Positions 726-48,288 of a stretch of DNA of 48,785 nucleotides are shown here, piece by piece. Position 1 is the first letter of the stretch, and each line of letters opens with the position of its first letter. The position numbers and the translations under genes are program-made. The notes under the pieces were generated by a model, which worked only from the letters and a program-made list of their open reading frames with translations, did not search any database and was not told the origin of the DNA. Origin of the DNA: Bacteroidota bacterium (GTDB lineage Bacteria; Bacteroidota; Bacteroidia; Chitinophagales; Chitinophagaceae); assembly GCA_013289065.1 (NCBI GenBank), contig JABDAP010000005.1:1-48785 (forward strand), written 5' to 3'.

Positions 726-805
726 AGTCTGAAGCCTGGAGTTAGAAGTCTGGAGTCAAGAGATCAGGATCAATACTTCAGACTCCAGTCTTCTAACTTC
801 AGACT
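726..805. repeat. Inverted word-repeat, TCTGGAGT family
   Basis: The left arm (726-757) is built of variants of AGTCTGGAGTTAGA. The right arm (781-805) is close to its reverse complement, so the region can fold into a hairpin. The same words recur at 1765-1803. It lies between the end of comB and the start of the SWIM gene. Confidence 0.8.
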
Positions 806-822
806 CATTCAAGGGCAATTTG

Positions 823-830
823 CAAAAGTA
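823..830 (-). promoter_or_regulatory. -7 box TACTTTTG, SWIM gene
   Basis: A perfect match to the Bacteroidota -7 consensus TAnnTTTG on the minus strand, 104 bases before the ATG at 719. No good -33 TTG is seen at the right distance, so this is a moderate call. Confidence 0.4.
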
Positions 831-953
831 AAGGAAAGAGGGCCGGTTTCCGAAAAGAAATAAAAAAATAATCCCCGAAAAGTGTAGAAATCAGGTTGTC
901 TTTTATGGAATTTAACCAGCTGTTGGGAAATGTGAAGTAGCCATCTGTTCAAA

Positions 954-1682
954 TCAAACCGTTTCAACAACCAGGTCGCCGTTTTTATAAAACGGAAGCG
1001 TATTCGCTACATCTTTTGTAACACAATATTCAAGATCAGATTCCAGCCCGTATGATGCCAGCCGGTGCCAATGTGTAGTATTACGTATAAAGCTGAACAT
1101 ATCTTTTTTATGCAGCCCATACATATTTGATGCCATCAGGCTGCTGTCGCAATGGATCGTAAAATGATCTTTCACTTCATCGATCACAGCGCCTGCAAAC
1201 AATGTGTCTTCGAGGTTAAACCTGTCTTTCCAGGCAGAGCAACCCAGTATCACATTTTTATCCTGCGAAACAAGATGATCACAAACAGCCGACAGGTTTG
1301 GGAATGAACCGGTAACTACTTCAGCGGCGCCGTTGTTAAGCGCCATATGTAATAACCTGGTGCCGTTAGTAGTGGTAAGCACTAATGTTTTTCCCTCAAT
1401 AAATGAACGTGGGTATTCAGCGGGTGAGTTTCCGTATGACAAACCCGGTATTATTTTACCATCACGTTCACCCGCAGTAATGCCACCGGTATTTTTTCCG
1501 ATCTGGATACATTGTTCTACCGAATCAACCGGTATCACTCTTGCAGCTCCATTATACAAAGCAGTGGCGATCGTAGATGTTGCACGGAACACATCGATGA
1601 TCACTACTACGCTGTTGGTAATATCATAGATATCCAACAACCGTGGCGACAGAACGGTATGAAGTACAGGTTTTTGTTTCAT
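954..1682 (-). CDS. comB: 2-phosphosulfolactate phosphatase ComB
   Basis: A 242-residue protein of the ComB family, which hydrolyses 2-phosphosulfolactate to sulfolactate (first characterised in coenzyme M synthesis; also present in many bacteria that make no CoM). Family motifs are visible: DVFRATST near residue 30, GERDG in the middle and TTTNGTR. Length is normal. The start is ATG 1682: a TTG nine bases upstream in frame lies inside the -7 box TATCTTTG (1689-1696) and so would not be in the mRNA. The leader is nearly absent. The next gene downstream is the SWIM gene, beyond a hairpin repeat. Confidence 0.9.
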   Translation of the reverse strand: MKQKPVLHTVLSPRLLDIYDITNSVVVIIDVFRATSTIATALYNGAARVIPVDSVEQCIQIGKNTGGITAGERDGKIIPGLSYGNSPAEYPRSFIEGKTLVLTTTNGTRLLHMALNNGAAEVVTGSFPNLSAVCDHLVSQDKNVILGCSAWKDRFNLEDTLFAGAVIDEVKDHFTIHCDSSLMASNMYGLHKKDMFSFIRNTTHWHRLASYGLESDLEYCVTKDVANTLPFYKNGDLVVETV

Positions 1683-1688
1683 GCACCG

Positions 1689-1696
1689 CAAAGATA
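1689..1696 (-). promoter_or_regulatory. -7 box TATCTTTG, comB
   Basis: Perfect TAnnTTTG on the minus strand, only 6 bases before the comB ATG (1682). Transcription would begin at or next to the start codon. Confidence 0.7.
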
Positions 1697-1723
1697 AATG
1701 CTGCGGGTGAATATTGAACAGAG

Positions 1724-1751
1724 AATGGTGAATAGTGAATGGTGAATAGTG
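1724..1751. repeat. Two tandem copies of a 14-bp unit
   Basis: The unit AATGGTGAATAGTG occurs at 1724-1737 and again at 1738-1751 without interruption. It lies between ssb and comB and shows the same word-repeat style as the other intergenic elements. Confidence 0.85.
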
Positions 1752-1764
1752 AGACTTTCTAATG

Positions 1765-1803
1765 TAACTCCAGACTCCAGACTTCTAACTCCAGACTTTT
1801 GAC
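1765..1803. repeat. Single arm of the TCTGGAGT repeat family
   Basis: ACTCCAGACT and TTCTAACTCCAG words, matching the right arm of the 726-805 element. No mirror arm is present here, so this looks like a half-copy. It abuts the 3' end of ssb. Confidence 0.7.
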
Positions 1804-1809
1804 TGTTCA

Positions 1810-5862: not shown

Positions 5863-5897
5863 AACATATGCTGTGAAATCTCAGTCACTCTTTGAGC

Positions 5898-5988
5898 TCT
5901 CTGTGCGCATTCCTTCGTGCCCTCTGTGGTTAATAGCCGCAATCGATAACCGCAGAGGGCGCAAAGTTTTGCACAGAGGTTCGCAGAG
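5898..5988. repeat. GC-rich CCGCAGAGG inverted element
   Basis: The left arm (5898-5934, CTCTGTGCGC...CCCTCTGTGGTTAA) is largely complementary to the right arm (5948-5988, AACCGCAGAGGGCGCAAAG...GCAGAG). It lies between convergent genes (zinc ribbon and rlpA), where it could also act as a two-way terminator. Confidence 0.75.
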
Positions 5989-6043
5989 TTTTAATAGCAG
6001 AATGCTTTGAATAATAATAAACCATGATTCACTGGTGATCGAT

Positions 6044-11818: not shown

Positions 11819-12175
11819 GCGTTCCTTATCTCCGCCTGTTCCGATCAATCCTTCTATAATAGAAGAAACAAAACTTACCACGAGGCTGAACAATAAAGCA
11901 GATAACCATCCATCAACCGTAAACCCAGGTACGAGATTGGCTGCGAGTTTTACTATGATGATATTGATCACTAACAAAAAAAGGCCGAGTGTAAACAATG
12001 TGATCGGTATAGTGAGAATGATGAGAATGGGTTTGATAAAACTATTCAGCAATCCGAGTACTACTGCCACGAGCAATGCAGTTACGTTACTGTCAACATG
12101 CACGCCTTTCAAAACATATGCGGCAAATAACACGGCTAATGCAGTAGCAACTGTTTTCGCAAAAAACTTTCCCAT
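11813..12175 (-). CDS. YvlD/phage-holin superfamily IV membrane protein
   Basis: A 120-residue protein with four predicted membrane helices (about 5-25, 30-48, 50-70 and 85-110). It has the family pattern NSFIKPILIILTIPITLFTLGLF and a loop with LVPGFTVDGW. YvlD-type proteins are often found with PspC in envelope-stress regulons; here the PspC gene lies about 1.4 kb away on the same strand. Function at the biochemical level is unknown. Its 3' end overlaps the convergent arsC-like gene by 6 bases (11813-11818). Confidence 0.85.
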   Translation of the reverse strand: MGKFFAKTVATALAVLFAAYVLKGVHVDSNVTALLVAVVLGLLNSFIKPILIILTIPITLFTLGLFLLVINIIIVKLAANLVPGFTVDGWLSALLFSLVVSFVSSIIEGLIGTGGDKERS

Positions 12176-12230
12176 GGCGTTTTATTTGTGATTCAAGTTA
12201 CTATTTATTTTTCTTCCGGGAACGCTGTAA

Positions 12231-12264
12231 AAAATGCACGCAAAGGCGCGAAGGCGCAGTTTTG
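12231..12264. repeat. Half copy of the ACGCAAAGGCGC element
   Basis: AAAATGCACGCAAAGGCGCG then AAGGCGCAGTTTTG: nearly identical to the right arms of the elements at 26791-26865 and 32261-32326, but without the left arm. Confidence 0.8.
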
Positions 12265-12312
12265 TTTTCTTTTATTTTTTCAATATTCAGGCACCAATAG
12301 CTTTTATGCGAA

Positions 12313-13593
12313 TCAGATCACCAATAATTCGTAAAACTCCTGCGGCTGTAAATATTTATTGGCAAGCGCCTGTATTTCTTCTGCTGTGATCGTTCTTACG
12401 GTTTGTATGCTGTTATAAAAATATTCGTCGGTAACATTATTGAGGATATAATTTTTCCACCGGGCAATTATCTGGAACGGGCCATCCAGGTCGCCGAGAA
12501 GTGAGCCGATCATGTAATTGCGAACGAGATCGAGTTCATCAGCTTCTACCGGTTCGTTGCAAAGGATAGCCATCTCTTTATATACTTCTGCAATGGTTGC
12601 TTCGCATACATCGCGGCCCGCTTCGGTACTGATCATCCATGCACTTTCATGGATATGGTTCTGCATATAACTATGTATCCCGTATGTGTAACCTTTCTCT
12701 TCACGGATATTACTCATCAGCCTCGACCCGAAAAATCCACCGAAAATATTATTCAATACCTGCGCCTTTGCAAAATCGGGATGATGCCTGTTGGGAAATT
12801 CGCGCGCAATACGGATAGCGCCCTGCACACCTTCCGCATCATTGATGATGTTATATTTTTTGGTTTCGGCCGGCTTCGGTTTGTAATCAATCTGCGGTAT
12901 ATCGTTTTGATGAAAAGGAAGATGCCCGAAGTGTTTGTTTAACTGCAGTTCCACATCAGCCGGTGGTTTGCCGGCTACAAATACCAGGCACTTGCCTTCT
13001 GTATAGAATCTTTTATAAAAAACATCCAGTTCTTCGCGCTCCAGTTTCTCATAATCAAGTGTAGAAGTATAGCGCCCGTATGGATGATGAAAACCATACA
13101 CATATTCATCGATCAAACGGTTGGCAACAAAATCGCATTTCTTCAGGTTTACTTCCAGGCGTTGTTTTTGATTTTGTTTGTAGATGGCCAGTTCTTCTGC
13201 AGGAAAAATGCTTTCGGTGATGAGCTCCGCAACAACGGGTAATAATTCAGACAAATGTTTACTGAGACAATGCAGCGTGATGATCGCAGTTTCATTATAA
13301 CAGCTCCTGTTCAGGTATGCGCCGTAATATTCAAAATATTCGTTAATGGCAAAAGCATTTTTTTGTTTTGTGCCATTCTTCAACATAAAATTTGTGGTGG
13401 CTGCTACAATATTTTTTTCTTCATACCAGTTACCTGCATAAAAGACCCATTCGATCAGCAACACTTCCTGTGCACCTGCATCGATGCTGTAAACAGGAAC
13501 GCCGTTATCCAATATAAAATGATCGCACGGCTTCAACTGCAGCTTCATATCTACCGCGTCAATTATTCCGGGTGCAGTTTTTCGATTTAGCAT
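12313..13593 (-). CDS. M16 peptidase-fold protein, inactive partner
   Basis: A 426-residue protein of the insulinase/processing-peptidase fold. The zinc motif HxxEH is absent: the equivalent stretch is IVAATTNFMLKNGT near residues 62-75. The C-terminal half keeps the substrate-binding Arg/Tyr pattern (SNIREEKGYTYGIHS). That is the division of labour seen in heteromeric M16B pairs, with the catalytic partner encoded just upstream (13751-14986). It is probably cytoplasmic or periplasm-facing; no signal peptide is seen. An alternative start is the ATG at 13548. Confidence 0.88.
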   Translation of the reverse strand: MLNRKTAPGIIDAVDMKLQLKPCDHFILDNGVPVYSIDAGAQEVLLIEWVFYAGNWYEEKNIVAATTNFMLKNGTKQKNAFAINEYFEYYGAYLNRSCYNETAIITLHCLSKHLSELLPVVAELITESIFPAEELAIYKQNQKQRLEVNLKKCDFVANRLIDEYVYGFHHPYGRYTSTLDYEKLEREELDVFYKRFYTEGKCLVFVAGKPPADVELQLNKHFGHLPFHQNDIPQIDYKPKPAETKKYNIINDAEGVQGAIRIAREFPNRHHPDFAKAQVLNNIFGGFFGSRLMSNIREEKGYTYGIHSYMQNHIHESAWMISTEAGRDVCEATIAEVYKEMAILCNEPVEADELDLVRNYMIGSLLGDLDGPFQIIARWKNYILNNVTDEYFYNSIQTVRTITAEEIQALANKYLQPQEFYELLVI

Positions 13594-13647
13594 AATTAAT
13601 TTTATTTGGGGTATCGTATCACTTCAATTAAAATGCAGAAAACATTG

Positions 13648-13702
13648 GCCGCAGATTCACAGATTAGCAGAGATAATCAGTGCTAATCTGTGAATCTGTG
13701 GC
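13648..13702. repeat. GCAGATTC inverted repeat between the M16 genes
   Basis: A 22-base arm at 13648-13669 (GCCGCAGATTCACAGATTAG...) is complementary, apart from one position, to 13681-13702; the loop is 11 bases. The same word family forms the 20-bp hairpin at 48230-48288. Confidence 0.88.
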
Positions 13703-13750
13703 TAAACAGGTTTTATTGATTTCAAAGTGATGCAATTATTTTTTTAGTTT

Positions 13751-14986
13751 TTATTTTGCGTAATACAATAATGTATTGCTGTTCTCATTGCTGAAAACAT
13801 TTGTACAATACTGTTGAATTTCTTCTGTTGTAACGGCGTGGTATTTTTCCAGTTCGGTATTCATCAATTCTGCATCGCCCAATAATTCATACATAGCGAG
13901 GCTGTTGGCGCGGCTCATCACACCCATGTCTTCGAATGCAATTACACTTTCTGTTTTGTTCTTTACTTTCTGTAATTCTGTTACAGATACGGATGTTGAT
14001 TGCATTTTTTCAATTTCTTCTTCCACTGCTTTTTCTGCTGCCTGCATGCTCACACCTTTTACCAGCTTGCCTTCTACCGCTATCAACCCTTTATCTACAC
14101 TGCCAAAATGATAACAATCGATCCCTGAGAATAATTGTTTTTCTTTTACCAGTGATTGATATAAACGCGAAGATCCGCCGCCACCCAGAATTTCTGTAGC
14201 GAGGTCGGCAACATAATACCCTTTTTCCAGGCGCGCATCCATGTGCCAGGTTTTGATAAATGCATCCAGCGGAACATTGGCCTGTACCTCTGATCTTCTT
14301 GCGGCAGTTTGTGCCGGCTCCTGTGGTAAGTTGCGGTTATATTTTTCTCCCATCGGAATATTGCCGAACCATTTTTCCGAAAGCTGTTTTACATTTTCCA
14401 GTTCCACATTTCCTGCCACAACCAATATGGCATTTACTGGGCGGTAATGTTTGAAGAAAAAATGTTTCACATCATCCATATTTGCATTTTCTACATGGCT
14501 GAGATCCTTCCCGATCGTCATCCAGCGATAGGGATGCACTTTATAAGCCAGCTCGCGCATTTTATGCCATACATCGCCATACGGTTTATTGATATAATGC
14601 TCTTTGAACTCTTCTATCACTACCTTCTTTTGTACGGAAAGGCTTTTTGCACCAAAGGCAAGGCTCAGCATGCGGTCGCTTTCGAGCCAGAAAGCAGTTT
14701 CAATATTTTCTGACGGCAGCTGGCAATAATAATTGGTAAGGTCATTGGTGGTATAGGCATTATTCTCGCCACCCGCCCGCTGCAACGGCTCGTCATAATC
14801 AGGAATATGGATACTTCCACCAAACATCAGGTGTTCAAATAAATGCGCGAAGCCGGTTTTGTCCGGGTTCTCATCACGTGCACCAACATCATACATAATA
14901 TTTACCACTGCCATTGGTGTGGAATGATCCTCATGTACCAAAACGCGTAAGCCATTATCTAAAACAAAACGATTGTATTTGATCAT
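13751..14986 (-). CDS. M16 zinc peptidase, active subunit
   Basis: A 411-residue metallopeptidase with a complete inverted zinc motif FAHLFEHLMFGG (His48, Glu51, His52) and the distal Glu ligand in KKVVIEEFKEHY (Glu125/126), plus AGGENNAYTTNDLTNYY. It lacks the C-terminal Arg/Tyr pattern, which the downstream M16 protein keeps, so the two probably form a heterodimer that degrades or processes peptides. No signal peptide is visible. The -7 box TAATTTTG (15009-15016) lies 22 bases before the ATG; the partner gene follows after a hairpin repeat. Confidence 0.93.
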   Translation of the reverse strand: MIKYNRFVLDNGLRVLVHEDHSTPMAVVNIMYDVGARDENPDKTGFAHLFEHLMFGGSIHIPDYDEPLQRAGGENNAYTTNDLTNYYCQLPSENIETAFWLESDRMLSLAFGAKSLSVQKKVVIEEFKEHYINKPYGDVWHKMRELAYKVHPYRWMTIGKDLSHVENANMDDVKHFFFKHYRPVNAILVVAGNVELENVKQLSEKWFGNIPMGEKYNRNLPQEPAQTAARRSEVQANVPLDAFIKTWHMDARLEKGYYVADLATEILGGGGSSRLYQSLVKEKQLFSGIDCYHFGSVDKGLIAVEGKLVKGVSMQAAEKAVEEEIEKMQSTSVSVTELQKVKNKTESVIAFEDMGVMSRANSLAMYELLGDAELMNTELEKYHAVTTEEIQQYCTNVFSNENSNTLLYYAK

Positions 14987-15008
14987 ACTGATAATTAAAA
15001 AGAAGATG

Positions 15009-15016
15009 CAAAATTA
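15009..15016 (-). promoter_or_regulatory. -7 box TAATTTTG, M16 pair
   Basis: Perfect TAnnTTTG on the minus strand, 22 bases before the ATG at 14986. Confidence 0.6.
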
Positions 15017-15059
15017 ATGCATTGCAGAAGACGGGCGCGGAATATTTGGGAAGTAAATC

Positions 15060-15130
15060 AGATGTTAGTTGGCAGATGACAGATGACAGGATTTGAACTT
15101 CTGTCATCTGTCATCTAACATCTGTCAACT
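15060..15130. repeat. Inverted word-repeat, CAGATGACAGATGACAG family
   Basis: The left arm 15060-15089 is built of CAGATGA words; the right arm 15101-15130 is close to its reverse complement. A half-copy with the words TTAGTTGACAG and GATGACAG is at 33851-33875. It lies between the retropepsin-PDZ gene and the active M16 gene. Confidence 0.85.
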
Positions 15131-16321
15131 TTAATGCCGGATGTCTTTCACATCAATAGTTAACACGATCGGTTGCTGGTTACGGAAAATAACCACGCGC
15201 ATTTTTCCGATACTGTTCTGGAAAAGATTTTTGTATGCCTGGATATTCTTTGAAATATTGCTTTCCACAGAAAAAATGATATCGCCGGCCTGAAAACCTG
15301 CTTTGTCGCCGGGTGAATTGGGCATTACATCGATCACCCTGATCTCTCCATCGATCTGGTAAATACCCAGCCCGGTATACGAGTAATCAAAATTTTCTGT
15401 AAAGTGCGTATTGGGTTTGATATGAGTGCTTTGCTCCGGATAATTGAGTACTACATTAAAACGGCGGAGTATATCGTTACCGATCAAACCACCGAGCAAT
15501 GGATAAGAGGTAACATTATACTCATCATCAAAAACATGCACCGGAACTTTTCTGAATTTGTACGGGCCGATCTTTACTTCGTTGGCAATGGACAGGCTCA
15601 TCAGTTTTTTTCCACCCAACCCTTCGGCCTGTGTGGGATAAGATTTGCGGTTCTTTTTAAACACCGTGCTGTCATCAACAAAATCTTTCGACAGGAGGAA
15701 ACTCAATCCTGCGCCCGTATCAAAAATAAAACGGCTTGTGATGATGCGGCCATCATCGATCGATGCGGTCTGGAGAGGAAGCGTGGAGAAATTTGGTTTT
15801 AATAAATAACCACCACGCGGATATTTATAAATGCCCGGTGTAAATACTTCTATAAAAAGATTGTCATAATCTATCCGTACAATATACCTTCGAAAAAAAC
15901 TGTAACCCACAATACCATCGATCCTTACGCCATATACACTGGTAAGCAATTCATAATCGTTGATATGAAAATCGAGGTGTGTTGTTTGAAGGCCGGGTAG
16001 CTTTAATATATGATCGAGTGAGAAATCAACATTCTTGATGCCGGCAATACCACGGATCGTTTTTTCTGTTTTTACAAAATTCAGTTTAAGGTAGTTGGCC
16101 GTGGTAGAATCGAGTGATATACCGCCGCTGCCCGTATCGAAAACAAAGTTGAGCGAATCAGGAAAATTATCAAGCTGCGCTTTTACGATCATGATACCCC
16201 CGCTCAACTGCGTAAACGGGAAACGCGCCAACAGCTTAGCCTGCGGAGGAACGAACTCTTCCTGTCCTTTACCCGTAATTGTGAGGCAAAGCATAGCAAA
16301 TGCAATACAAAATGTTCTCAT
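15131..16321 (-). CDS. Retropepsin-like aspartic protease with PDZ domain, exported
   Basis: A 396-residue protein. A signal peptide (MRTFCIAFAMLCLTITGKGQ) indicates export. Two aspartyl-protease half-domains each carry a catalytic triad motif, FDTGSGG (Asp62) and FDTGAGL (Asp201), so the active site can form within one chain. A C-terminal PDZ domain (about 310-396: IYQIDGEIRVIDVMPNSPGD...GFQAGDIIFSVE) would bind substrate C-termini. It is probably a periplasmic quality-control or processing protease. ATG 16321 is chosen because it puts the signal peptide at the N-terminus; in-frame ATGs at 16345, 16354 and 16378 would precede it. Confidence 0.88.
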   Translation of the reverse strand: MRTFCIAFAMLCLTITGKGQEEFVPPQAKLLARFPFTQLSGGIMIVKAQLDNFPDSLNFVFDTGSGGISLDSTTANYLKLNFVKTEKTIRGIAGIKNVDFSLDHILKLPGLQTTHLDFHINDYELLTSVYGVRIDGIVGYSFFRRYIVRIDYDNLFIEVFTPGIYKYPRGGYLLKPNFSTLPLQTASIDDGRIITSRFIFDTGAGLSFLLSKDFVDDSTVFKKNRKSYPTQAEGLGGKKLMSLSIANEVKIGPYKFRKVPVHVFDDEYNVTSYPLLGGLIGNDILRRFNVVLNYPEQSTHIKPNTHFTENFDYSYTGLGIYQIDGEIRVIDVMPNSPGDKAGFQAGDIIFSVESNISKNIQAYKNLFQNSIGKMRVVIFRNQQPIVLTIDVKDIRH

Positions 16322-16435
16322 GCAGGGTTCAAAATACGAATTCATTTTGGGCATTACCTGCAGGGCACAGGCAAACATCCATTCTCATGACAATAAATAA
16401 TCGGTTTTCGATGCAACGGCAATCAAGCTTCCTGT

Positions 16436-16443
16436 TACCTTTG
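16436..16443 (+). promoter_or_regulatory. -7 box TACCTTTG, mqnC
   Basis: Perfect TAnnTTTG, 26 bases before the ATG at 16470. Confidence 0.6.
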
Positions 16444-16469
16444 TTCTCTCTTACTCAATATTTTTGAAT

Positions 16470-17594
16470 ATGCAATTAGCCGGCCTCTACGAAAAAGCTT
16501 TACGGTTCGAGTTCCTCGATATAGCAGAAGGGATGTTTTTATTTGAACATGCGCCGCTAACAGAATTGATGTTTGTGGCCGATGAGATGCGCAAAAAACA
16601 AGTGCCGTATAATAAAGTTACCTGGCAGATAGACCGCAATGTAAATACCACGAATGTTTGTGTGGCCAATTGTAAGTTCTGTAATTTTTACAGGATCCCC
16701 GGGCATGCAGATGCTTATATTACTGACATGCCGACCTACCGGAAAAAGATCGAAGAAACTTTTAAGTATGGCGGCGATCAATTGTTATTGCAGGGCGGCC
16801 ATCACCCGGAACTGGGGCTGGATTTTTATACCAAAACTTTCCGCGCCATCAAGCAGGAATATCCGCATATCAAACTTCATTCACTCGGTCCGCCCGAAGT
16901 GGCGCATATCTGTAAGCTGGAAAAGATGAGCCACCACGATGTGCTGAAAGCCTTGCAGGAAGCGGGCCTTGACTCATTGCCCGGAGCCGGCGCAGAAATA
17001 TTGGTAGACCGTGTAAGAAGATTGATCTCAAAAGGAAAATGTGGTGCAGATGAGTGGCTCGACATTATGCATGAGGCGCATAAATTAAATATTACCACCA
17101 GTGCAACCATGATGTTTGGCCATGTAGAAACATTGGAAGAGCGTTTTATACATCTAACAAGGATTCGGGAAGTACAAAGCCGTAAACCGGAAAATGCAAA
17201 GGGCTTTCTTGCCTTTATTCCATGGACCTTTCAGGATGTTGATACCTTGCTTACACGTATAAGAGGCGTACATAATTTAACCACGCCTGATGAATATATC
17301 CGGATGATCGCTATCAGCCGCATTATGTTACCGAATATAAAAAATATACAGGCCAGCTGGTTAACGGTAGGCAAGGCAACGGCACAGATCTGTTTACATG
17401 CCGGCGCCAATGATTTTGGAAGTATCATGATAGAAGAGAATGTGGTAAGTGCAGCCGGTGCGCCGCATCGCTTTACATACAAAACAATACAGGAAGCCAT
17501 TCGCGAAGCCGGTTTTGAACCACAGCTCAGGAACCAGCAATACGAGTTCAGGGCTATGCCGGAAAGTATACAGGAGCAGGTGATCGATTATTGA
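16470..17594 (+). CDS. mqnC: Cyclic dehypoxanthinyl futalosine synthase MqnC
   Basis: A 374-residue radical SAM enzyme of the futalosine menaquinone route; it closes the ring of dehypoxanthine futalosine. The 4Fe-4S motif is CVANCKFC (Cys64, Cys68, Cys71). LQGGHHPELGLDFY and AGLDSLPGAGAEILVDRVR are closer to MqnC than to the paralogue MqnE. Length is normal. ATG 16470 is used. No other mqn gene is nearby, so the pathway is scattered. It implies menaquinone made through futalosine, as in many Chitinophagaceae. Confidence 0.93.
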   Translation: MQLAGLYEKALRFEFLDIAEGMFLFEHAPLTELMFVADEMRKKQVPYNKVTWQIDRNVNTTNVCVANCKFCNFYRIPGHADAYITDMPTYRKKIEETFKYGGDQLLLQGGHHPELGLDFYTKTFRAIKQEYPHIKLHSLGPPEVAHICKLEKMSHHDVLKALQEAGLDSLPGAGAEILVDRVRRLISKGKCGADEWLDIMHEAHKLNITTSATMMFGHVETLEERFIHLTRIREVQSRKPENAKGFLAFIPWTFQDVDTLLTRIRGVHNLTTPDEYIRMIAISRIMLPNIKNIQASWLTVGKATAQICLHAGANDFGSIMIEENVVSAAGAPHRFTYKTIQEAIREAGFEPQLRNQQYEFRAMPESIQEQVIDY

Positions 17595-17655
17595 GCTGTA
17601 AGCTATGAGCTTTCAATAAAATTACTACATTCGTATACAATTTTAATTTAACCAT

Positions 17656-17868
17656 ATGAGGCCGAAACCTACCTTACTGTTTGTACTGGCCATCGGATCG
17701 ATCGGTTTAATGGCCTTCCTGTTTAATCAAACAACTATCGTCCCAAAGATCGAATGCGGTAAAAAATGCGGTTGCAAAGAACAATTGCCTGTAACCGATT
17801 CAAGCGGCGGCGGTGCTGAAATGTTCAGCGGCTCCCTGAACCACCTGATCGTATCAACCATAAGATAA
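17656..17868 (+). CDS. Small membrane-anchored Cys-rich protein
   Basis: A 70-residue protein with one N-terminal membrane segment (LLFVLAIGSIGLMAFLF) and a short exported part with CGKKCGCKEQ (CxxxCxC), then SSGGGAEMFSGSLNHLIVS. The family is not recognised. Its own promoter may be TACATTCG (17626-17633, one mismatch) and a clear terminator follows at 17876-17902, which supports an independent expressed gene. Confidence 0.65.
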   Translation: MRPKPTLLFVLAIGSIGLMAFLFNQTTIVPKIECGKKCGCKEQLPVTDSSGGGAEMFSGSLNHLIVSTIR

Positions 17869-17875
17869 ACCCCGG

Positions 17876-17902
17876 TCCTGCAAATAATGCAGGATTTTTT
17901 TT
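17876..17902 (+). terminator. Rho-independent terminator
   Basis: TCCTGCA (17876-17882) pairs with TGCAGGA (17888-17894) across a five-base loop, followed by eight T. It ends the small gene at 17656-17868. Confidence 0.88.
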
Positions 17903-17978
17903 CTTTGTATTGTAACATAATACCGCCTGTTACGTATCACTTCTATACAACGCAAGAATTTAGTTATCCCTGCTGTTT

Positions 17979-18464
17979 ATGACTGAGAAAGAATACAATC
18001 AATGTGTGAACGACTACGCCGATAATGTGTACCGCTTTATCGTGAAGAACCTTCGCCATGAAGAAGATGCAAGGGATATTGTACAGACCGCTTTTGAAAA
18101 ATTATGGCGCAACCGGGAAGCTGTGGAAGATGGCAAGTCGAAATCGTATCTTTTTACTGTTGCCTATAACCAGATGATCGATCATATCCGTAAGAACAAA
18201 CGCATACAGCTAAAGGACGAGTTTACAGAGGACGGAAGAACCCAGCACCAGACAAACAGCAACCTGAAAAAAGCATTAATGGAAGCGTTGAACCGCTTGA
18301 ATGAAACACAAAAAAGCCTGGTGATGCTGAAAGATTATGAAGGATACAGTTACGAAGAGATCGGTGAAATCATGGGATTGAATGAGAGCCAGGTAAAAGT
18401 TTACCTCCACAGAGCGCGTTTAACCCTGCGGAATTATTTAGTGAGCCCTGAAAATGTGCGATAA
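17979..18464 (+). CDS. ECF-type RNA polymerase sigma factor
   Basis: A 161-residue sigma-70 region 2 + region 4 protein. Region 2 is seen in YADNVYRFIVKNLRHEEDARDIVQTAFEKLW and SYLFTVAYNQMIDHIR; region 4 in LVMLKDYEGYSYEEIGEIMGLNESQVKVYLHRAR. It is the first gene of a sigma / anti-sigma / outer-membrane protein operon (33 bases, then 17 bases apart). ECF factors answer envelope or extracytoplasmic signals; the regulon is unknown. No TAnnTTTG box precedes it, which would fit self-activation from a different promoter. Confidence 0.93.
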   Translation: MTEKEYNQCVNDYADNVYRFIVKNLRHEEDARDIVQTAFEKLWRNREAVEDGKSKSYLFTVAYNQMIDHIRKNKRIQLKDEFTEDGRTQHQTNSNLKKALMEALNRLNETQKSLVMLKDYEGYSYEEIGEIMGLNESQVKVYLHRARLTLRNYLVSPENVR

Positions 18465-18497
18465 AAAATGAATCAAAAAAATCATATTTAATCATCA

Positions 18498-19634: not shown

Positions 19635-19651
19635 AAAGAAAACCGAAATAT

Positions 19652-28960: not shown

Positions 28961-28970
28961 GCGGAGGTTT

Positions 28971-29057: not shown

Positions 29058-29085
29058 TAAAAAATGCACGTACGGCGTGATGTAT

Positions 29086-29093: not shown

Positions 29094-29097
29094 CTTA

Positions 29098-32260: not shown

Positions 32261-32326
32261 TTTATGTATAATTACTGCGCATTTGCGTAAGAAAAATGCA
32301 CGCAAAGGCGCAGGGGCGCAGTTTTG
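32261..32326. repeat. GC-rich inverted element, copy B
   Basis: Shares both flanks and the right arm (ACGCAAAGGCGCAGGGGCGCAG, 32300-32321) with copy A at 26791-26865 but has lost about 8 bases of the left arm (CTGCGCATTTGCGT, 32275-32288). Confidence 0.88.
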
Positions 32327-32412
32327 ATTTGTTTTGAATTTTAAAACGGAGATACTATAGAATTTTACCCTTCCATTCACAATCCTTTTTTCCATTCAAC
32401 CCTTGGTAGTTC

Positions 32413-32427: not shown

Positions 32428-33843
32428 ATGAAACGTTCGTTTACACAGGTTGTTATATTGGTTTGTATTCTGCTGCGCGTGGTGCTGCTGTCTTCCTGCG
32501 CCAATATACTTCCGCCAAGCGGCGGGCCGCGCGATAGTTTACCGCCCAGGCTGGTAATGGCGATACCAAAAGATTCATCGCTGAATGTGAATACAAAAAA
32601 TATCACGCTCACATTTGATGAATATGTGACCTTACAGAACCCGCTGGAGAACCTCATTATTTCGCCGCTAATGAAACAGTTTCCCTTGGTAGATTACAAG
32701 CTGAAAAATGTAACCATCAAACTAAAAGATTCTCTCGAGGCCAACACTACTTACTCTTTTAATTTCGGCGAAGCGATCAGGGATGTGAACGAAAGCAATA
32801 TAGCCAGAGGGTTTACCTATGTTTTTTCAACCGGTAAAACCATCGATTACAATACTTACAGCGGAAAAGTATTGGTAGCAGAAACCGGCAAATCCGACAG
32901 CACATTGATCGTGGTATTACACAAAGACCTTTCCGATTCTTCTGTTATCAAAAACCCGCCCCGTTATTATACACGTCTCAATGGCAAGGGTGAATTTACT
33001 TTTCATAACTTACCGGAAGGTGTTTTTACTGTGTATGTAATACCCGGCACATCCTACTCAAGAAAATATGAGGACACTACCAAACTCTTTGCGTTCCGTA
33101 ATACACCTGTAAAAGTTGGTTCAACCACACAGCGCGATACTTTATATGCTTTTGCCCAATCAAAACCTGCACCCATAAAAACATCAGCAACCTCATCATC
33201 TCCCGTTGCCATATCTGCCGCGAACAGGGATGATAAACGTTTACGGTATACACGCGACCTGGATAACGGCCAGCAGGATCTGTTGAGCAATCTCACACTT
33301 ACCTTCAACCGCAAACTGTTTGGTTTCGACAGTACAAAATTTGTTTTGTATGATTCGAATTATAATAAACTCAGCGGTTATTCTTTTTTGCTCGACAGTA
33401 CCAAAACAAAAGTGATCGTTCAGTATAAATGGAAAGAGGCGAGTTACCTGCGGTTGCTGATCGCGAAAGATGCTGTGGCCGATTCATTGGGTGTAACATT
33501 ACCCAAAGCGGATACGATCCGCTTCAATACAAAAAAAGAAACGGATTATGGAAGTGTCCATATCCGTTTTACCGGCCTCGACCTTTCAAAGAATCCGGTA
33601 TTACAAATACTACAGAGTGATAAACTGCTGGAGTCTGTTCCGCTTACAGGGCCGGATTTCACCAGAAAATTATTTAAACCCGGTTCTTATGAACTGCGCA
33701 TTTTATATGACATAAATAAAAATGGCGTATGGGATACCGGCAGGTTTACGCATGGCAAGCGCCAGCCCGAAATTGTTTACCTCATCCCCAAACAGCTTGC
33801 TATCCGCGCGAATTGGGATAATGATGTGACGATCGGGTTATGA
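32428..33843 (+). CDS. Ig-like domain lipoprotein
   Basis: A 471-residue lipoprotein (lipobox LSSC) with the Bacteroidota signature CANILPPSGGPRDSLPPRL directly after the acylated Cys. Residues about 35-135 form a bacterial Ig-like (Big_5) domain (DSSLNVNTKNITLTFDEYVTL). A carboxypeptidase-regulatory-like stretch follows (GEFTFHNLPEGVFTVYVIPG) and the C-terminus is beta-rich, with YDINKNGVWDTG. It probably sits at the outer membrane. Function unknown; it is conserved in Bacteroidota next to various genes, here between the helicase and recR. Confidence 0.85.
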   Translation: MKRSFTQVVILVCILLRVVLLSSCANILPPSGGPRDSLPPRLVMAIPKDSSLNVNTKNITLTFDEYVTLQNPLENLIISPLMKQFPLVDYKLKNVTIKLKDSLEANTTYSFNFGEAIRDVNESNIARGFTYVFSTGKTIDYNTYSGKVLVAETGKSDSTLIVVLHKDLSDSSVIKNPPRYYTRLNGKGEFTFHNLPEGVFTVYVIPGTSYSRKYEDTTKLFAFRNTPVKVGSTTQRDTLYAFAQSKPAPIKTSATSSSPVAISAANRDDKRLRYTRDLDNGQQDLLSNLTLTFNRKLFGFDSTKFVLYDSNYNKLSGYSFLLDSTKTKVIVQYKWKEASYLRLLIAKDAVADSLGVTLPKADTIRFNTKKETDYGSVHIRFTGLDLSKNPVLQILQSDKLLESVPLTGPDFTRKLFKPGSYELRILYDINKNGVWDTGRFTHGKRQPEIVYLIPKQLAIRANWDNDVTIGL

Positions 33844-33920
33844 GGAGACATTAGTTGACAGTTGATAGATGACAGTGAATGTTCATCAACGTTTCATAAC
33901 TTTATAGTTATACAAATATT

Positions 33921-34037
33921 GTAACAAGTAACAAGTAACAAGTAACAAGTAACAAGTAACAAGTAACAAGTAACAAGTAACAAGTAACAAGTAACAAGTA
34001 ACAAGTAACAAGTAACAAGCAACAAGCAACATCTAAC
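33921..34037. repeat. (GTAACAA)14 tandem repeat before recR
   Basis: Fourteen exact 7-bp GTAACAA units at 33921-34018, then two variants (GCAACAA, GCAACAT) and CTAAC, ending directly at the recR ATG at 34038. The unit is not a multiple of three, and the tract would change promoter spacing or the leader, not the reading frame. A slippage-prone site. Confidence 0.97.
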
Positions 34038-41081: not shown

Positions 41082-41101
41082 TACTTTTCCTTTTGCCCCC
41101 G

Positions 41102-41133
41102 CCCCTAAAGGGGAGTTAGAGCCCCTTTAGGGG
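41102..41133. repeat. CCCCTAAAGGGG palindromic repeat
   Basis: CCCCTAAAGGGG (41102-41113) and CCCCTTTAGGGG (41122-41133) are complementary and each is nearly self-palindromic; the loop is 8 bases. It follows the metH stop; a widely dispersed intergenic sequence type in Bacteroidota, probably also a terminator. Confidence 0.85.
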
Positions 41134-41179
41134 TTGGGTAAAAAGATCGATCTGTTTATAAAATGAAATTATTGATACT

Positions 41180-41986: not shown

Positions 41987-42022
41987 TAGTAAATATTTAG
42001 TGCCATTAAAATACGCTGCGGA

Positions 42023-42106
42023 TCTCTGCGTAAAACTTTGCGTACTCTGCGGTTTGAAGTTGAGGCTATTAACCGCAGAGGATACGCAAAGGAATGCGCG
42101 CAGAGA
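42023..42106. repeat. GC-rich CCGCAGAGG inverted element
   Basis: The left arm 42023-42055 (TCTCTGCGTAAAACTTTGCG...CTCTGCGGTTT) and right arm 42071-42106 (AACCGCAGAGG...GCGCAGAGA) mirror each other imperfectly. It lies between convergent genes (barrel protein and LOG). Confidence 0.78.
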
Positions 42107-42120
42107 ACACAGAGAATTAA

Positions 42121-44330: not shown

Positions 44331-45098
44331 ATGCGCATCATTTCTTATAATGTAAACGGCATCCGTTCTGCTATTAAAAAAGGTTTTATTGACTGGCTAA
44401 AAACAAATCCCGCAGATATCATTTGTTTGCAGGAAACCAAAGCAACAAAAGAGGATCTTGATTATGCCGGGATCGAAGCGCTTGGTTACCAGACATACTG
44501 GTTCTCCGCACAGAAAAAAGGTTACAGCGGTGTGGCCATTTTTACAAAAATAAAACCTGATCATATTGAATACGGGCATGCAATAGAACAAAGCGATTTT
44601 GAAGGGCGTGTGATACGCGCCGATTTTGGCGATATCACTTTGATCAATGCATATTATCCATCCGGAACCAGCGGCGATGAAAGACAGACATATAAGTACC
44701 AGTGGCTCGATGAATTTTTTGAATACTTACAGCAACTGCGGAAGAAAAGGCCAAAGCTGATCGTGGTAGGCGATTACAATATTGCGCATACCGAAGTGGA
44801 TATCCATGACCCGAAGGGAAATAAAAAATCTTCGGGGTTTTTGCCTGAAGAAAGGGAATGGATGACGAAATTTTTACAAAATGAATGGATCGATACTTTC
44901 AGGGAACTGAACCCTACAGCTATTGGCGCTTATTCGTGGTGGAGCCAACGTTTTCCTACGGTTAGATTACAGAACAAAGGATGGCGCATCGATTATATCT
45001 GTGTAACCAAACCCTTAAAAGCACAGGTAAAAGCTGCGTGTATTTATCCTGATGTGAAGCATAGCGATCACTGCCCGATATACGCAGAAATTAGTTAG
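44331..45098 (+). CDS. xth: Exodeoxyribonuclease III
   Basis: A 255-residue AP endonuclease/exonuclease. Motifs: MRIISYNVNGIRSAIKKG, ICLQETKA (catalytic Glu), GDYNIAHTEVD (metal-binding Asp/Asn), WRIDYICVT and the catalytic SDHCPI. It repairs abasic sites and 3' blocks. Normal length. An AT-rich inverted repeat follows at 45091-45185. Confidence 0.96.
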   Translation: MRIISYNVNGIRSAIKKGFIDWLKTNPADIICLQETKATKEDLDYAGIEALGYQTYWFSAQKKGYSGVAIFTKIKPDHIEYGHAIEQSDFEGRVIRADFGDITLINAYYPSGTSGDERQTYKYQWLDEFFEYLQQLRKKRPKLIVVGDYNIAHTEVDIHDPKGNKKSSGFLPEEREWMTKFLQNEWIDTFRELNPTAIGAYSWWSQRFPTVRLQNKGWRIDYICVTKPLKAQVKAACIYPDVKHSDHCPIYAEIS

Positions 45099-45185
45099 TA
45101 ATTAATAATTAGTAGTTAGTAATTATTAAACTATACTAACCTGCTGGTTTCAATTACTAATTATTAACTACTAATTACTAATTAA
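45091..45185. repeat. A/T-rich inverted word-repeat (TTAGTAATTA family)
   Basis: Left arm 45091-45127 is TTAGTTAGTAATTAATAATT words; right arm 45152-45185 is the mirrored ACTAATTATTAACTACTAATT. It ends xth and runs to 5 bases before DUF4286's start. Confidence 0.85.
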
Positions 45186-45190
45186 CCATC

Positions 45191-46294: not shown

Positions 46295-46347
46295 AATTGG
46301 GAAATTTTGGAATTGAAAGTATAACTCAATTCCAAAATTTCCCAATT
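46295..46347. repeat. Perfect 22-bp inverted repeat
   Basis: AATTGGGAAATTTTGG...TTGA (46295-46316) is exactly complementary to 46326-46347, with a 9-base loop. Between convergent thx and the Tat-exported PLP gene. AATTTTGG words also occur just outside both arms. Confidence 0.95.
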
Positions 46348-46367
46348 CCAAAATTTCAAAATCAATT

Positions 46368-47663
46368 CTATTTCTTTCTTCCGGCAATTTCCTCAATTGC
46401 CAAAACAAGTTTATCCAGATCCTGTAGTTTTGTATATACGTGCGGCGTAACGCGCACGCAGGAAATGTTTTCCCAAACAATAGAAGTTGTATGGATTTTA
46501 TAACTGTTGAATAGTGCAGCGTCCAATTCGCCGGGCGTCATTCCATCAACCGTTACACCACAGATGGCACATGCATATTCGGGTTTGAATGATGTATGGA
46601 TCTTTACTTTGGGAATATCTTTTACTTTTCCCGCCCAATAATTTTTCAGGTAACGGATACGTTCTTCTTTTCGTTTGTTACCGATCGCATTCTGAAAATT
46701 AACCGCTTCGCCAATTCCCTGTTCTATCGGAAAGCTGCGCGTACCAAGGGTTTCAAACTTTCGGATGTCTTCACTATGCGGCTTATCATTACAGGTAAGC
46801 GGCCAGATCTTTCCTATCTTTTCTTTTTTGATCCACATCATTCCGCTGCCGATGGGTGCGCTTAAAAATTTATGCAGGCTCGTTCCAAAATAATCGCAGC
46901 CCAGATCAGGTATTTTAAAATCCAGTAATCCAAAAGAGTGTGCGCCGTCAACAATTACTTCCAGCCCATGCCGCTTCGCCATGTCCGTGATCTTTTTCAC
47001 CGGCATGATCTGTCCCATCCAGTTAATGATATGTGTTACATGCAGGATCTTTGTTTTAGGTGTGATCGCTTTTTCAAAAGCAGCCACGATCTCATCATCA
47101 TTCTCAATGGGAAAATCAAAACTCAGCTGCGTGTACACAATGCCTTCACGCATTGCCCGTTGCCGCCATGCCTGTACCATGTTTGGATAATCCTGTTTGG
47201 TGCCGATCACTTCATCGCCAGCTTTCAGATCCAGCCCATAGATCACTGTATTCAATGATTCGGTTGCATTCCTGTTCACTGCAATTTCTTCGGGCGAACA
47301 TCCTGCCAATACTGCCAGTTTTTGCCGGAGCGGTTCGCGTCCCTGGTCAAGAATACGCCACATATAATAAGACGGCCCTTCATTCGATAATCGATTATAC
47401 CGCTCCACGGCATCCTGCACAACTCTTGGCGAGGGGCTCACGCCGCCATTATTCAATATGATCAGGTTAGAATTTACAGAATACGATTGCTGTATCACGC
47501 TCCAGTAGTCTTCATCCGTTGCCGCTTCCTGTGGAGAAAGATGGTCGATCTTACGCGAAGCATCTTCCCATGATGCCGCATGTAACTGGTTAAACAGGCT
47601 GTTTGCTGAAAATGCGCCTGCCAGTAATCCTACCTGCTGTATAAATTTTCTACGTGGTTCCAC
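46368..47663 (-). CDS. Tat-exported aminotransferase class V-fold enzyme
   Basis: A 431-residue PLP enzyme of the isopenicillin-N epimerase-like branch. An N-terminal twin-arginine signal (PRRKFIQQVGLLAGAF) predicts export as a folded holoenzyme. VDGAHSFGLLDF binds PLP and the Schiff-base lysine is in TSLHKFLSAP. ILNNGGVSPSPRVVQDA is the typical start of the mature domain. The substrate is unknown. A cytoplasmic relative lies at 3014-4144. The 3' end abuts the 22-bp inverted repeat. Confidence 0.88.
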   Translation of the reverse strand: MEPRRKFIQQVGLLAGAFSANSLFNQLHAASWEDASRKIDHLSPQEAATDEDYWSVIQQSYSVNSNLIILNNGGVSPSPRVVQDAVERYNRLSNEGPSYYMWRILDQGREPLRQKLAVLAGCSPEEIAVNRNATESLNTVIYGLDLKAGDEVIGTKQDYPNMVQAWRQRAMREGIVYTQLSFDFPIENDDEIVAAFEKAITPKTKILHVTHIINWMGQIMPVKKITDMAKRHGLEVIVDGAHSFGLLDFKIPDLGCDYFGTSLHKFLSAPIGSGMMWIKKEKIGKIWPLTCNDKPHSEDIRKFETLGTRSFPIEQGIGEAVNFQNAIGNKRKEERIRYLKNYWAGKVKDIPKVKIHTSFKPEYACAICGVTVDGMTPGELDAALFNSYKIHTTSIVWENISCVRVTPHVYTKLQDLDKLVLAIEEIAGRKK

Positions 47664-47691
47664 TTTGTATGATTGAAGAAGTAAGTTAAGA

Positions 47692-47765
47692 ATAGTTCAT
47701 GGGTCATAGTTCATGGCCAATGAAAAAAATCCCGCGATGAACCATGATCTATGAGCCATGACCTA
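47692..47765. repeat. Inverted word-repeat, GTCATAGTTCATGG family
   Basis: Left arm 47692-47716 (GTTCATGGGTCATAGTTCATGG) and right arm 47742-47765 (CCATGATCTATGAGCCATGACC) are imperfect mirrors. Its right end runs into the -7 box TATCTTTG (47764-47771) of the small membrane protein, so the repeat covers the -33 region. Confidence 0.85.
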
Positions 47766-47771
47766 TCTTTG
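47764..47771 (+). promoter_or_regulatory. -7 box TATCTTTG
   Basis: Perfect TAnnTTTG, 17 bases before ATG 47789. Confidence 0.65.
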
Positions 47772-47788
47772 CATTGAAACAGGAACCC

Positions 47789-48031
47789 ATGAGGAAGAGG
47801 TCTATCTACACATTTTTCGTTTTTCTTTCAGCGTTCAGCGTTGAGCTTGTAAAAGCGCAATGTTCTATCTGTACCAAAACGGCTTCTCAATTGGGCCAGG
47901 GCCCTGCAAGCGCATTGAACTCCGGTATTTTATATTTGGCCGCCGCGCCCTTTGCCATCATGGGTTATATCGGATGGAGATGGTGGAAGAATGAAAAAGA
48001 ACTGAATAAAGACGAAACCTCCAATATGTAA
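47789..48031 (+). CDS. Small exported/membrane protein with CSIC motif
   Basis: An 80-residue protein (ATG 47789): signal peptide RSIYTFFVFLSAFSVELVKAQ, then CSICTKTASQLGQGPASALNSG, one membrane segment (ILYLAAAPFAIMGYIGW) and a basic tail. The CxxC after the signal cleavage could bind metal or form a disulfide. The pattern is familiar in Bacteroidota, but no function is known. The next tiny gene follows 9 bases later. Confidence 0.72.
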   Translation: MRKRSIYTFFVFLSAFSVELVKAQCSICTKTASQLGQGPASALNSGILYLAAAPFAIMGYIGWRWWKNEKELNKDETSNM

Positions 48032-48040
48032 ACAGCTTCT

Positions 48041-48214
48041 ATGTCACTCTTCTTTTTCCTGCGTTTTATCCTGATCAATTTTCTCCTGGTGGGTTGGCTG
48101 TTCTATCAACTTTTATACAAAAGAAAAAAATGGCGCGAAATTAAAGATGATGCAATGGCTGTTCTCTTTTTTGTTTGTGTTTGGACAGGGATCGCTTATT
48201 TCTTTACGAGTTAG
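48041..48214 (+). CDS. Tiny two-helix membrane protein
   Basis: A 57-residue ORF from ATG 48041 to TAG 48214. Two membrane segments (FFFLRFILINFLLVGWLFYQLL and MAVLFFVCVWTGIAYFF, each read in part) flank a basic loop YKRKKWREIKDD. Starts 9 bases after the previous gene, same strand, so probably cotranscribed with it. Family not recognised; it is real-looking because of the operon position and clear hydrophobic pattern. Confidence 0.65.
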   Translation: MSLFFFLRFILINFLLVGWLFYQLLYKRKKWREIKDDAMAVLFFVCVWTGIAYFFTS

Positions 48215-48229
48215 TGTTCTCGAAATTAT

Positions 48230-48288
48230 AAGCCGCAGATTCGCAGATTGGATTGATTCTTCAGGAGCAATCTGCGAATCTGCGGCTT
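48230..48288. repeat. Perfect 20-bp GCAGATTC inverted repeat
   Basis: AAGCCGCAGATTCGCAGATT (48230-48249) is exactly complementary to 48269-48288; the loop is 19 bases. Same word family as 13648-13702, 35 kb away. Between the two tiny membrane genes and the convergent meaB. Confidence 0.95.

Follow-up and report, generated by a model that had tools for sequence, protein, structure and literature searches.

Heptamer palindromes between genes of a Chitinophagaceae bacterium are built like the arms of a small element related to 23S rRNA intervening sequences

What process places inverted repeats, each assembled from variants of one short word, between the genes of a bacterial genome? The question is raised by a 48,785-nucleotide (nt) stretch of DNA from a member of the Chitinophagaceae (Bacteroidota bacterium, GenBank assembly GCA_013289065.1, contig JABDAP010000005.1, positions 1 to 48,785; this whole stretch is the window below). 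A reading of its letters alone, here the sequence-only reading, had listed ten such palindromes and assigned them one architecture and one generating process, for example slippage on hairpins or a transposase of the repetitive extragenic palindrome (REP) type. We find that the palindromes are of three kinds, and that one of them, made of heptamers, is built like the inverted arms around genes of the 23S rRNA intervening-sequence protein family (PF05635, 23S_rRNA_IVP, a four-helix bundle; hereafter 4HB), the gene-less palindromes of this kind probably being non-autonomous copies. Our best reading is thus of stem-loop elements like the intervening sequences (IVSs) of 23S rRNA, accompanied by gene-less relatives; that they move within genomes and spread between lineages, and by which enzymes, we infer.

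Inverted repeats in the intergenic gaps

The excess of inverted repeats in the gaps over chance is real. At a score of at least 18, inverted repeats were found in 9 of the 30 gaps called in the window, where mononucleotide shuffles gave 0%, and in 50 of 202 gaps sampled across the genome (0.7% in shuffles), the sample comprising 20 stretches of 20 kb (400 kb) of a 2.44-Mb, 53% complete assembly, with gaps taken from simple calling of open reading frames (ORFs). Shuffled gaps, a comparison that the sequence-only reading had proposed, stay at 0–0.7%, far below the real ones. Two same-genus genomes had such repeats in 8 of 84 and 2 of 65 gaps (shuffles 0%), so they are partly present there too. 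Between roughly one in four and one in three called gaps are occupied, and the claim that nearly every gap is filled was overstated.

The listed palindromes themselves are mostly recovered. A repeat finder returned 28 inverted pairs in the window, and among the 25 shown were 8 of the 10 palindromes listed; outside these 25, 47688–47770 scored 20 in our arm aligner, and 23072–23130 scored only 9, yet is a clear array of 7-nt words. The two supposed half-copies, 1765–1803 and 33851–33875, are indeed word arrays with no partner arm. The list had missed palindromes of a CGCAGAGG/CGCAAAGG type at about 2284, 5880, 12225 (a half-copy), 26804, 32270 and 42020. No Rfam family matched the window at its gathering score.

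The architecture is not the same throughout. Three kinds can be told apart: heptamer arrays; palindromes of 8–10-nt words, such as CGCAGAGG and CGCAAAGG, which also accompany GxxExxY genes; and a REP-like kind, CCCCTAAAGGGG. Autocorrelation gave period 7 at 722–808, 1720–1803, 15055–15132, 23072–23130, 45088–45188 and 47688–47770, more weakly at 21325–21385, and in the half-copy at 33848–33880. Composition separates the kinds as well: among the 59 inverted-repeat gaps of the window and sample together, those with a lag-7 identity of at least 0.55 numbered 21, of which 20 had a 5' arm rich in purines and none had one rich in pyrimidines; the other 38 were divided 19 to 19.

One heptamer palindrome fills the co-directional gap at 45091–45185 on the forward strand (TTAGTAA/TTAGTAG; arms 85–90% complementary), with the TAG stop of the preceding ORF (44331–45098) in phase with the array. 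Two others are gene-less and of 4HB type: 722–808 (AGTCTGG/AGTTAGA units; arms 733–757 and 781–805, 88%; lag-7 identity 0.56/0.51; purine-rich 5' arm) and 15055–15132 (GATGACA units; 77% over 15060–15130 and 92% in its inner part; 0.62/0.66; inverted-repeat score 22). The palindrome at 47688–47770 is built of TTCATGG/GTCATAG (0.53/0.51), and the array at 23072–23130 (0.73/0.61) starts at the TGA (23070–23072) of ORF 22728–23072. At 1720–1803 two unpaired arrays adjoin, GTGAATA/GTGAATG followed by ACTCCAG (0.66/0.60; arm score only 5); 21325–21385 is a short palindrome with a heptamer-like left arm (score 14; 0.61/0.33); and the unpaired word array at 33848–33880, GTTGACAGTTGATAGATGACAG, follows the stop of ORF 32428–33843. 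A long unpaired heptamer array (TAACAAG units, a TAA stop in each) also lies directly before the recR start, at 33925–34036, and resembles the TAACTGA arrays of PMC4679880.

A four-helix-bundle gene between word arms

What could not be seen from the window is that such arms belong to small gene-bearing elements, with a 4HB or a GxxExxY gene inside. PF05635 had 11 matches in this genome, ten of which were fetched (the eleventh was left out), and all ten genes are flanked by degenerate inverted word arms, a word upstream and its reverse complement downstream, with the word mostly different at each locus. Their arm scores of 21–35 compare with a median of 13 and a 95th percentile of 19 for mismatched flank pairs. 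Because arms of the same build flank all ten copies examined, the gaps of the window likely hold gene-less relatives of a small mobile element.

The arrangement extends beyond this genome. Among order-level loci (this genome and its relatives), arm scores reached at least 20 in 20 of 38; 33 loci entered the analyses of periodicity, orientation, stop phase and G·U pairing, the order-level omissions being L011, L019, L020 and L032 (inner stops or a weak partial match) and L021 (flank too short). A further 80 loci from named genomes, the best of 584 confirmed, are mostly from Bacteroidota by title, with some from Omnitrophota, Nitrospirae, Clostridia and others. In the 78 used (L092, with a short flank, and L133, with N in its flanks, were set aside), scores of at least 20 occurred in 38 loci; the controls reached that level at 14 of 780 random positions in the same loci and in 58 of 1,538 mismatched pairs. 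Their flanks were strongly periodic at lag 7 (z = 15.5) and lag 14 (z = 12.2; n = 78). The best lag was 7 for 44 of the 78 loci and for 13 of about 234 random positions, and purines prevailed in the 5' arm of 4HB loci in 49 of 54 and 19 of 22 cases. A family search around genome G034 found one genome.

Plasmid records with a 4HB gene numbered 29, 23 of them cyanobacterial by name. In 14 of these 23 that we examined, the arm score was at least 15 in eight and 7–12 in the others, and by eye all had 7-nt arrays on at least one flank (AGTAGGG, GGGAACA, GGGAAAA, AGTCAGA and others) except L300 and, doubtfully, L301; at L298 both arrays have the same orientation. Three of the plasmid loci (L298, L306 and L307) place the 4HB gene between CRISPR genes, cas6–cas4 in two records and cas10–cmr3 in one.

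Several loci deserve separate mention. Three 4HB elements with three different words (L003, L004 and L012) lie at G000:C3:1-7820 of the window's own genome (G000) among arginine-biosynthesis-like genes, the neighbours being argD-like and N-acetylornithine-carbamoyltransferase-like, both just below cut-off. At L109, L110, L113, L047 and L066, word arrays are apparently translated as N-terminal extensions of the neighbouring or enclosed proteins. Divergent 4HB genes that are armless by eye occupy one conserved site in four same-genus genomes (L029, L030, L031 and L042), before a gene that we take to be dapF-like; these 4HB genes are possibly domesticated.

Orientation and the stop-codon boundary

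The elements mostly have one orientation, and about half of them begin in phase at a defined place. The 4HB gene was co-directional with both neighbours at 92 of the 106 loci where both were found. At the 104 of 111 loci with a usable upstream host stop, the heptamer beginning at that stop was 51, 50, 50 and 42% identical to the 7-mers at +7, +14, +21 and +28, against about 29% at other distances, and by a fixed threshold the stop was in phase with the array at period 7 in 49 of 104 loci, compared with 1–5 at periods 5, 6 and 8–11. Periodicity sets in sharply at the host stop, with a unit of roughly TAGNNNN, and that stop was TAG in 47 of 104 loci versus 68 of 270 background ORF ends. Stops in all three frames within 45 nt were present at 59 of 104 loci, where shuffles gave an expectation of 37; all-frame stops as the reason for a 7-nt unit are suggestive only.

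One junction allowed occupied and unoccupied sites to be compared. Among 197 genomes of the class, 154 had a FadA match (acetyl-CoA acyltransferase, the downstream gene of the junction); 90 junctions among the best were taken and 71 parsed. The stop of the upstream gene, presumably fadB, contained a G at 13 of 16 junctions with a 4HB gene and at 11 of 53 without (hand count, excluding two junctions without FadB-like ends; Fisher P = 2 × 10−5). Eight junctions without a 4HB gene nevertheless had a TAG fadB stop, and four of these (L264, L275, L292 and L294) carried arrays by eye. The end of hisA had looked as though host sequence might seed the word, a candidate that we set aside, since fadB mostly ends in TAA without a 4HB gene and mostly in TAG or TGA with one. 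From the same difference, it is the array that may provide the final base or bases of the host stop.

Empty sites and gene-less relatives

Sites occupied here are empty in relatives. The gap between what we take to be hisA and hisF (the latter identified by search) measures 449 nt with its 4HB gene in this genome; elsewhere in the genus it spans −7 to 85 nt in 15 genomes read by script and is also short by eye in six more. In G023 that gap holds a gene-less array of another word, which is independent. At L319:13587-14923, a 4HB element lies between hisA and hisF, and a gene-less palindrome of another word directly follows hisF. The palindrome between two M16 genes of the window (13645–13705) was likewise absent, by eye, from the same gap in 14 same-genus genomes. 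PF05635 itself was found in 4 of 24 same-genus genomes, with one or two matches each.

Heptamer arrays occupied 27 of the 202 sampled gaps in the window's genome and 1 of 149 in two same-genus genomes, G010 (no 4HB gene) and G017 (one divergent 4HB gene). A 4HB gene adjoins one of these 27, and 13 reach an inverted-repeat score of at least 18 as well. Exact stretches in common between arms (compared unpadded, like type with like type, and only for gaps scoring at least 18) tie some gaps together: for heptamer-type arms, 13 of the 465 pairs taken within the genome shared at least 18 nt, compared with 0 of 2,077 pairs formed with 4HB arms of other genomes; for all arm types the figures were 25 of 2,485 within and 2 of 5,609 between genomes. 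Word families recur at different gaps of the genome, as the sequence-only reading had anticipated. One family of five loci joins gene-bearing and gene-less members directly, comprising the 4HB locus L011 and the gene-less gaps at 45091 of the window, L312 and L326 (two); the arms of 45091–45185 have an exact 27-nt stretch in common with L011 and 20–26 nt with three other gaps, and L011 shares 20–27 nt with four gene-less gaps in all. L013 and L014, which bear GxxExxY genes, each have a 20-nt stretch in common with one gene-less gap. For L006, L009 and L010 the shared stretches were of only 14–16 nt (L006, 16 nt with each of two gaps), near the between-genome level for heptamer arms, at which 8 of 2,077 pairs reached at least 14 nt and none at least 16.

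Several observations weigh against this account. Scores stayed below 20 at 18 of the 38 order-level 4HB loci (among them L023, L026, L034, L029, L030, L031 and L042), and the 78 named loci lack independence: fadB–fadA loci made up three of the six queries, and this site dominates. Four families account for all 13 sharing pairs, and the five-locus family alone for ten; sharing among non-heptamer arms was weaker (8 of 780 pairs within the genome versus 2 of 480 with GxxExxY arms elsewhere); and 26 of 71 arm sets of this genome, six of them gene-bearing, had no partner in the sample. At fadB, arrays were seen by eye after TAA stops without a 4HB gene (L238, L251 and L290), and gene-less CTCTGCGG palindromes are mostly opposite in polarity to the gene-bearing GxxExxY locus L013. 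Arm mismatches on the gene strand showed no excess of G·U over A·C (138 versus 185), hence no sequence sign of selected RNA pairing; with the trend opposite to expectation, we dropped the claim of RNA-level selection on the stem. Finally, no movement was seen, and the pairs of empty and occupied sites come from genomes too diverged to give an exact boundary or a target duplication. On balance we still consider it probable that the gene-less heptamer palindromes derive from the 4HB element.

GxxExxY genes and the remaining palindromes

A parallel kind of element encloses a gene for a GxxExxY protein (PF13366) of PD-(D/E)XK type within arms of 8–10-nt words (CGCAGAGG, CGCAAAGG and others). Two GxxExxY genes of this genome lie between CGCAGAG and CGCAAAGG arms, and of 27 loci scored (out of 28; L067 and L068 overlap), 17 had arm scores of at least 20. 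The best lags of their flanks were mostly 8, 9 and 17 (n = 23), and the gene was co-directional with both neighbours at 11 of 19 loci where both were found. E30, Y33, D70, E80 and K82 were invariant in 15 proteins (GxxExxY followed by D...ExK), the latter residues being what we take to be the active-site pattern of PD-(D/E)XK nucleases. At L044, a gene-less palindrome of opposite polarity and a gene-bearing GxxExxY element abut, and the gene-less CTCTGCGGTT...AACCGCAGAG palindromes (window 5863–6043 and 41987–42120, L324 and L325) are reversed in polarity relative to the gene-bearing L013.

In the window, periods of 8–10 were found for the elements at 12225, 13645, 26800, 27375, 28968, 32270, 46275 and 48225, and no clear period for the CTCTGCG group at 2284, 5880 and 42020. 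That group comprises 2284–2345 (CTCTGCG/CGCAGAGG, degenerate, score 10, with the word of L013 and L014 by eye), 5880–5992 (CTCTGTGG/CCGCAGAG) and 42020–42115 (CTCTGCG/CCGCAGAG), the last two, each with an inverted-repeat score of 20, belonging to a family of six gaps joined by stretches of at least 14 nt. GxxExxY-type words also make up the half-copy at 12225–12262 (CGCAAAGGCGCGAAGG; lag 8/9; the L014 word by eye), the palindrome at 26804–26861 (ACTGCGTCTCCGCGCCTTTGCGTG; 96% complementary; joined to two other gaps at 14 nt or more) and that at 32270–32330 (CTGCGC/GCGCAG; score 12; lag 8 at 0.57 in its right half). Two palindromes have periods of 8 and 10: 13645–13705, CAGATTCACAGATTAGCA, between the M16 genes (arms 87%), and 28968–29060, with an ACATAGG word (91%), CACATAG words lying by the GxxExxY genes L052 and L060 by eye. 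The GTTAAA-word palindrome at 27377–27463 (94% over 27386–27460) has by eye the word of the gene-bearing 4HB element L006. Period 8 characterizes both 46295–46362 (AATTTTGG; 100% over 46295–46347; in a gene-less family of four) and the perfect palindrome at 48229–48289 (CCGCAGATTCGCAGATTG; 100%), which has a 25-nt stretch in common with L317:14922. The palindrome at 41090–41145, CCCCTAAAGGGG, has no word repeat and stands in a class apart, also represented in the sampled gaps.

Alternative explanations

Polymerase slippage might grow arrays in any gap and template switching mirror them, leaving the 4HB gene a bystander. The tandem words are indeed degenerate, the two arms of a locus resemble each other but not those of other loci, a paired array at a score of at least 18 is missing from half of the lag-7 gaps, and an earlier proposal, as reported in PMC4679880, has 7 nt as the contact length of a polymerase. 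Slippage, which the sequence-only reading had named, may well have shaped the words. However, arms enclose 4HB and GxxExxY genes far more often than random positions, heptamer arrays are nearly absent from G010 and G017, which belong to the same genus and have at most one 4HB gene, and heptamer-type arm arrangements are common to several gaps only within a genome; such sharing of whole arrangements, seen for some families, points to more than independent slippage, and we hold this explanation of the palindromes unlikely. Some process does act, as had been supposed; a single one is unsupported.

The second process proposed from the sequence was dispersal of the palindromes, as REPs, by the genome's own TnpA_REP (Y1 HUH) enzymes, the REP-associated tyrosine transposases (RAYTs). 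The search it suggested did return two Y1_Tnp genes, flanked by CCCAGCC/GGCTGGG and GGCTGCGGC repeats, and 41090–41145 and several sampled gaps are REP-like, so that the third kind of palindrome fits these genes. Their flanks are classical and REP-like, without word arms, and the word palindromes in turn have no fixed REP sequence. In genome G027 (98% complete) PF05635 matched six times, with one split gene probably behind two of the matches, and Y1_Tnp not at all, while G010 has a RAYT, yet a heptamer array in 1 of 84 gaps. Nor was a reverse transcriptase (RVT_1) found in G027 or in the window's genome (53% complete). As G027 carries PF05635 with neither enzyme, the elements seem to need neither a RAYT nor a reverse transcriptase, and we rejected both as mobilisers because their presence does not track 4HB genes; a RAYT origin of the word palindromes is accordingly very improbable. 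A reverse transcriptase gene does lie near two adjacent 4HB genes, on the opposite strand, at G039:C24:2609-4667 (L352 and L024), in an arrangement possibly akin to a diversity-generating retroelement (DGR) or related to one.

Arrays could also be devices acting in RNA, operon leaders or attenuators for a host RNA-binding protein (S1, Csr or Csp), with no element involved. They are co-directional, lie within operons and adjoin starts and stops, and such a role is proposed for the TAACTGA repeats in PMC4679880. We give this account very little credence, given that relatives have empty sites, that there is no G·U signature and that the enclosed 4HB genes would be left unexplained. Ordinary intrinsic terminators, which the sequence-only reading had already discounted, are the least credible explanation: a scan of 12000–30000 placed terminator-like sites inside three 8–10-nt palindromes (28998–29028, the inner hairpin of 28968–29060, and 26851–26838 and 12250–12237 on the minus strand), but its 17 sites equal the shuffled mean (17.4), no heptamer palindrome in that interval was among the hairpins with a T-run that it listed, and gene-bearing arrays lie between co-directional genes, as at hisA–hisF.

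A possible mechanism and its implications

If the palindromes are relatives of a 4HB element, that element would insert within operons, at the stop codons of their genes. Insertion may be tolerated because entry at the stop keeps a stop in place and because RNase III could cut the hairpin from the operon transcript, a step proposed by analogy with rRNA IVSs. Solved structures related to the 4HB protein exist (2GSC and 2RLD), and a Xanthomonas homologue is a homopentamer according to PMC4990558. Such a pentamer may be a nucleic-acid-binding protein that the element supplies for its own arms and that acts together with enzymes of the host. Once the element is in place, its word would drift, and slippage of units and switching of template from arm to arm would maintain the likeness of the two.

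A bolder extension is that these elements form a new mobile class whose ends are defined by rhythm: any heptamer word, repeated every 7 nt in phase from the stop and mirrored, with the pentamer reading one NAG-like triplet per 7 nt per subunit, much as TRAP reads GAG/UAG triplets on RNA. The rRNA IVSs, the short tandemly repeated repetitive (STRR) sequences of cyanobacteria, the Xanthomonas and Beggiatoa repeats and the Bacteroidota palindromes would be its traces, and the GxxExxY elements an 8–10-nt sister. We offer this as a tentative conjecture, rather doubtful as a whole. A rule of five units for the pentamer was tried and is unproven: 53 of the 104 loci had no strict in-phase unit in the 5' array, and most of the others had 2–6.

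Should the link between the palindromes and the 4HB element hold, one account would serve for the unexplained 23S rRNA IVS protein, free-standing heptanucleotide repeats and the word palindromes of Bacteroidota. The nature and movement of IVS elements would also become testable, with many gene-bearing and gene-less copies and a clear boundary at the host stop codon. For annotation, a warning follows: short N- or C-terminal extensions may be translated word arrays.

Comparison with known systems

The closest known system is the 23S rRNA IVS, in which a PF05635/TIGR02436 protein is likewise encoded in a loop between terminal inverted repeats and a mobile origin has been proposed (PMC4990558). 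In Coxiella, as described there, the IVS has a 28-bp inverted-repeat stem and an S23 ORF and is excised by RNase III, with mobility only hypothesised. The gene-bearing copies here similarly hold the family ORF within inverted repeats, whereas the window palindromes are gene-less. They differ from IVSs in their location, in gaps that separate protein-coding genes and in many cases at a stop codon, where the IVS sits in an rRNA helix, and in having degenerate heptamer arms with a locus-specific word and many gene-less palindromes. Because the analysed loci adjoin protein ORFs and not a 23S rRNA helix, we call them IVS-like, not IVSs.

Heptanucleotide simple-sequence repeats are familiar from cyanobacteria as STRRs. 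Tandem 7-nt units, intergenic and near stops, are a property here of the period-7 class only, which has in common with published heptamer repeats its aligned ORFs, overlap with stops and inverted pairs. The GGGAATC/GGGGAYT heptamers of Xanthomonas and Nostoc occur between aligned ORFs, where they overlap stops and, immediately downstream of these, are rich in G on the sense strand; inverted pairs are common, numbering 70 and 75 in two Xanthomonas genomes, and association with mobile elements was generally not found, according to PMC4692102. The TAACTGA repeats of Beggiatoaceae provide stops in all frames, with no mechanism evident in the available part of PMC4679880. Unlike the arrays described here, these repeats are linked with neither a 4HB gene nor an element in the portions of the descriptions available.

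Other families of repeats resemble the palindromes less. REPs, their paired forms (REPINs) and bacterial interspersed mosaic elements (BIMEs), with RAYTs, are also multi-copy intergenic palindromes, but have a fixed REP sequence, depend on a RAYT, and show no word arrays or enclosed 4HB gene; a conserved REP hairpin beside, or dispersed by, a Y1_Tnp gene is not a feature of the word palindromes and may be one of the CCCCTAAAGGGG class. The Avd protein of DGRs is a related four-helix bundle, and two of the 4HB proteins scanned had weak NF033474 matches (E = 2 × 10−5 and 8 × 10−5), with a score of 24.6 against a cut-off of 80 and, as noted, no RVT_1 in either genome searched. No transposase gene lay between the arms of the loci read. 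As in miniature inverted-repeat transposable elements (MITEs), short gene-less inverted-repeat copies occur alongside gene-bearing relatives with the same ends, terminal repeats being shared with potentially autonomous copies at L011, L013 and L014 (and over only 14–16 nt at L006, L009 and L010); the ends of MITEs are fixed, whereas those here vary by locus. Among the matches listed in a search of mostly open-access literature, with preprints outside it, no publication linked heptamer arrays to a 4HB gene.

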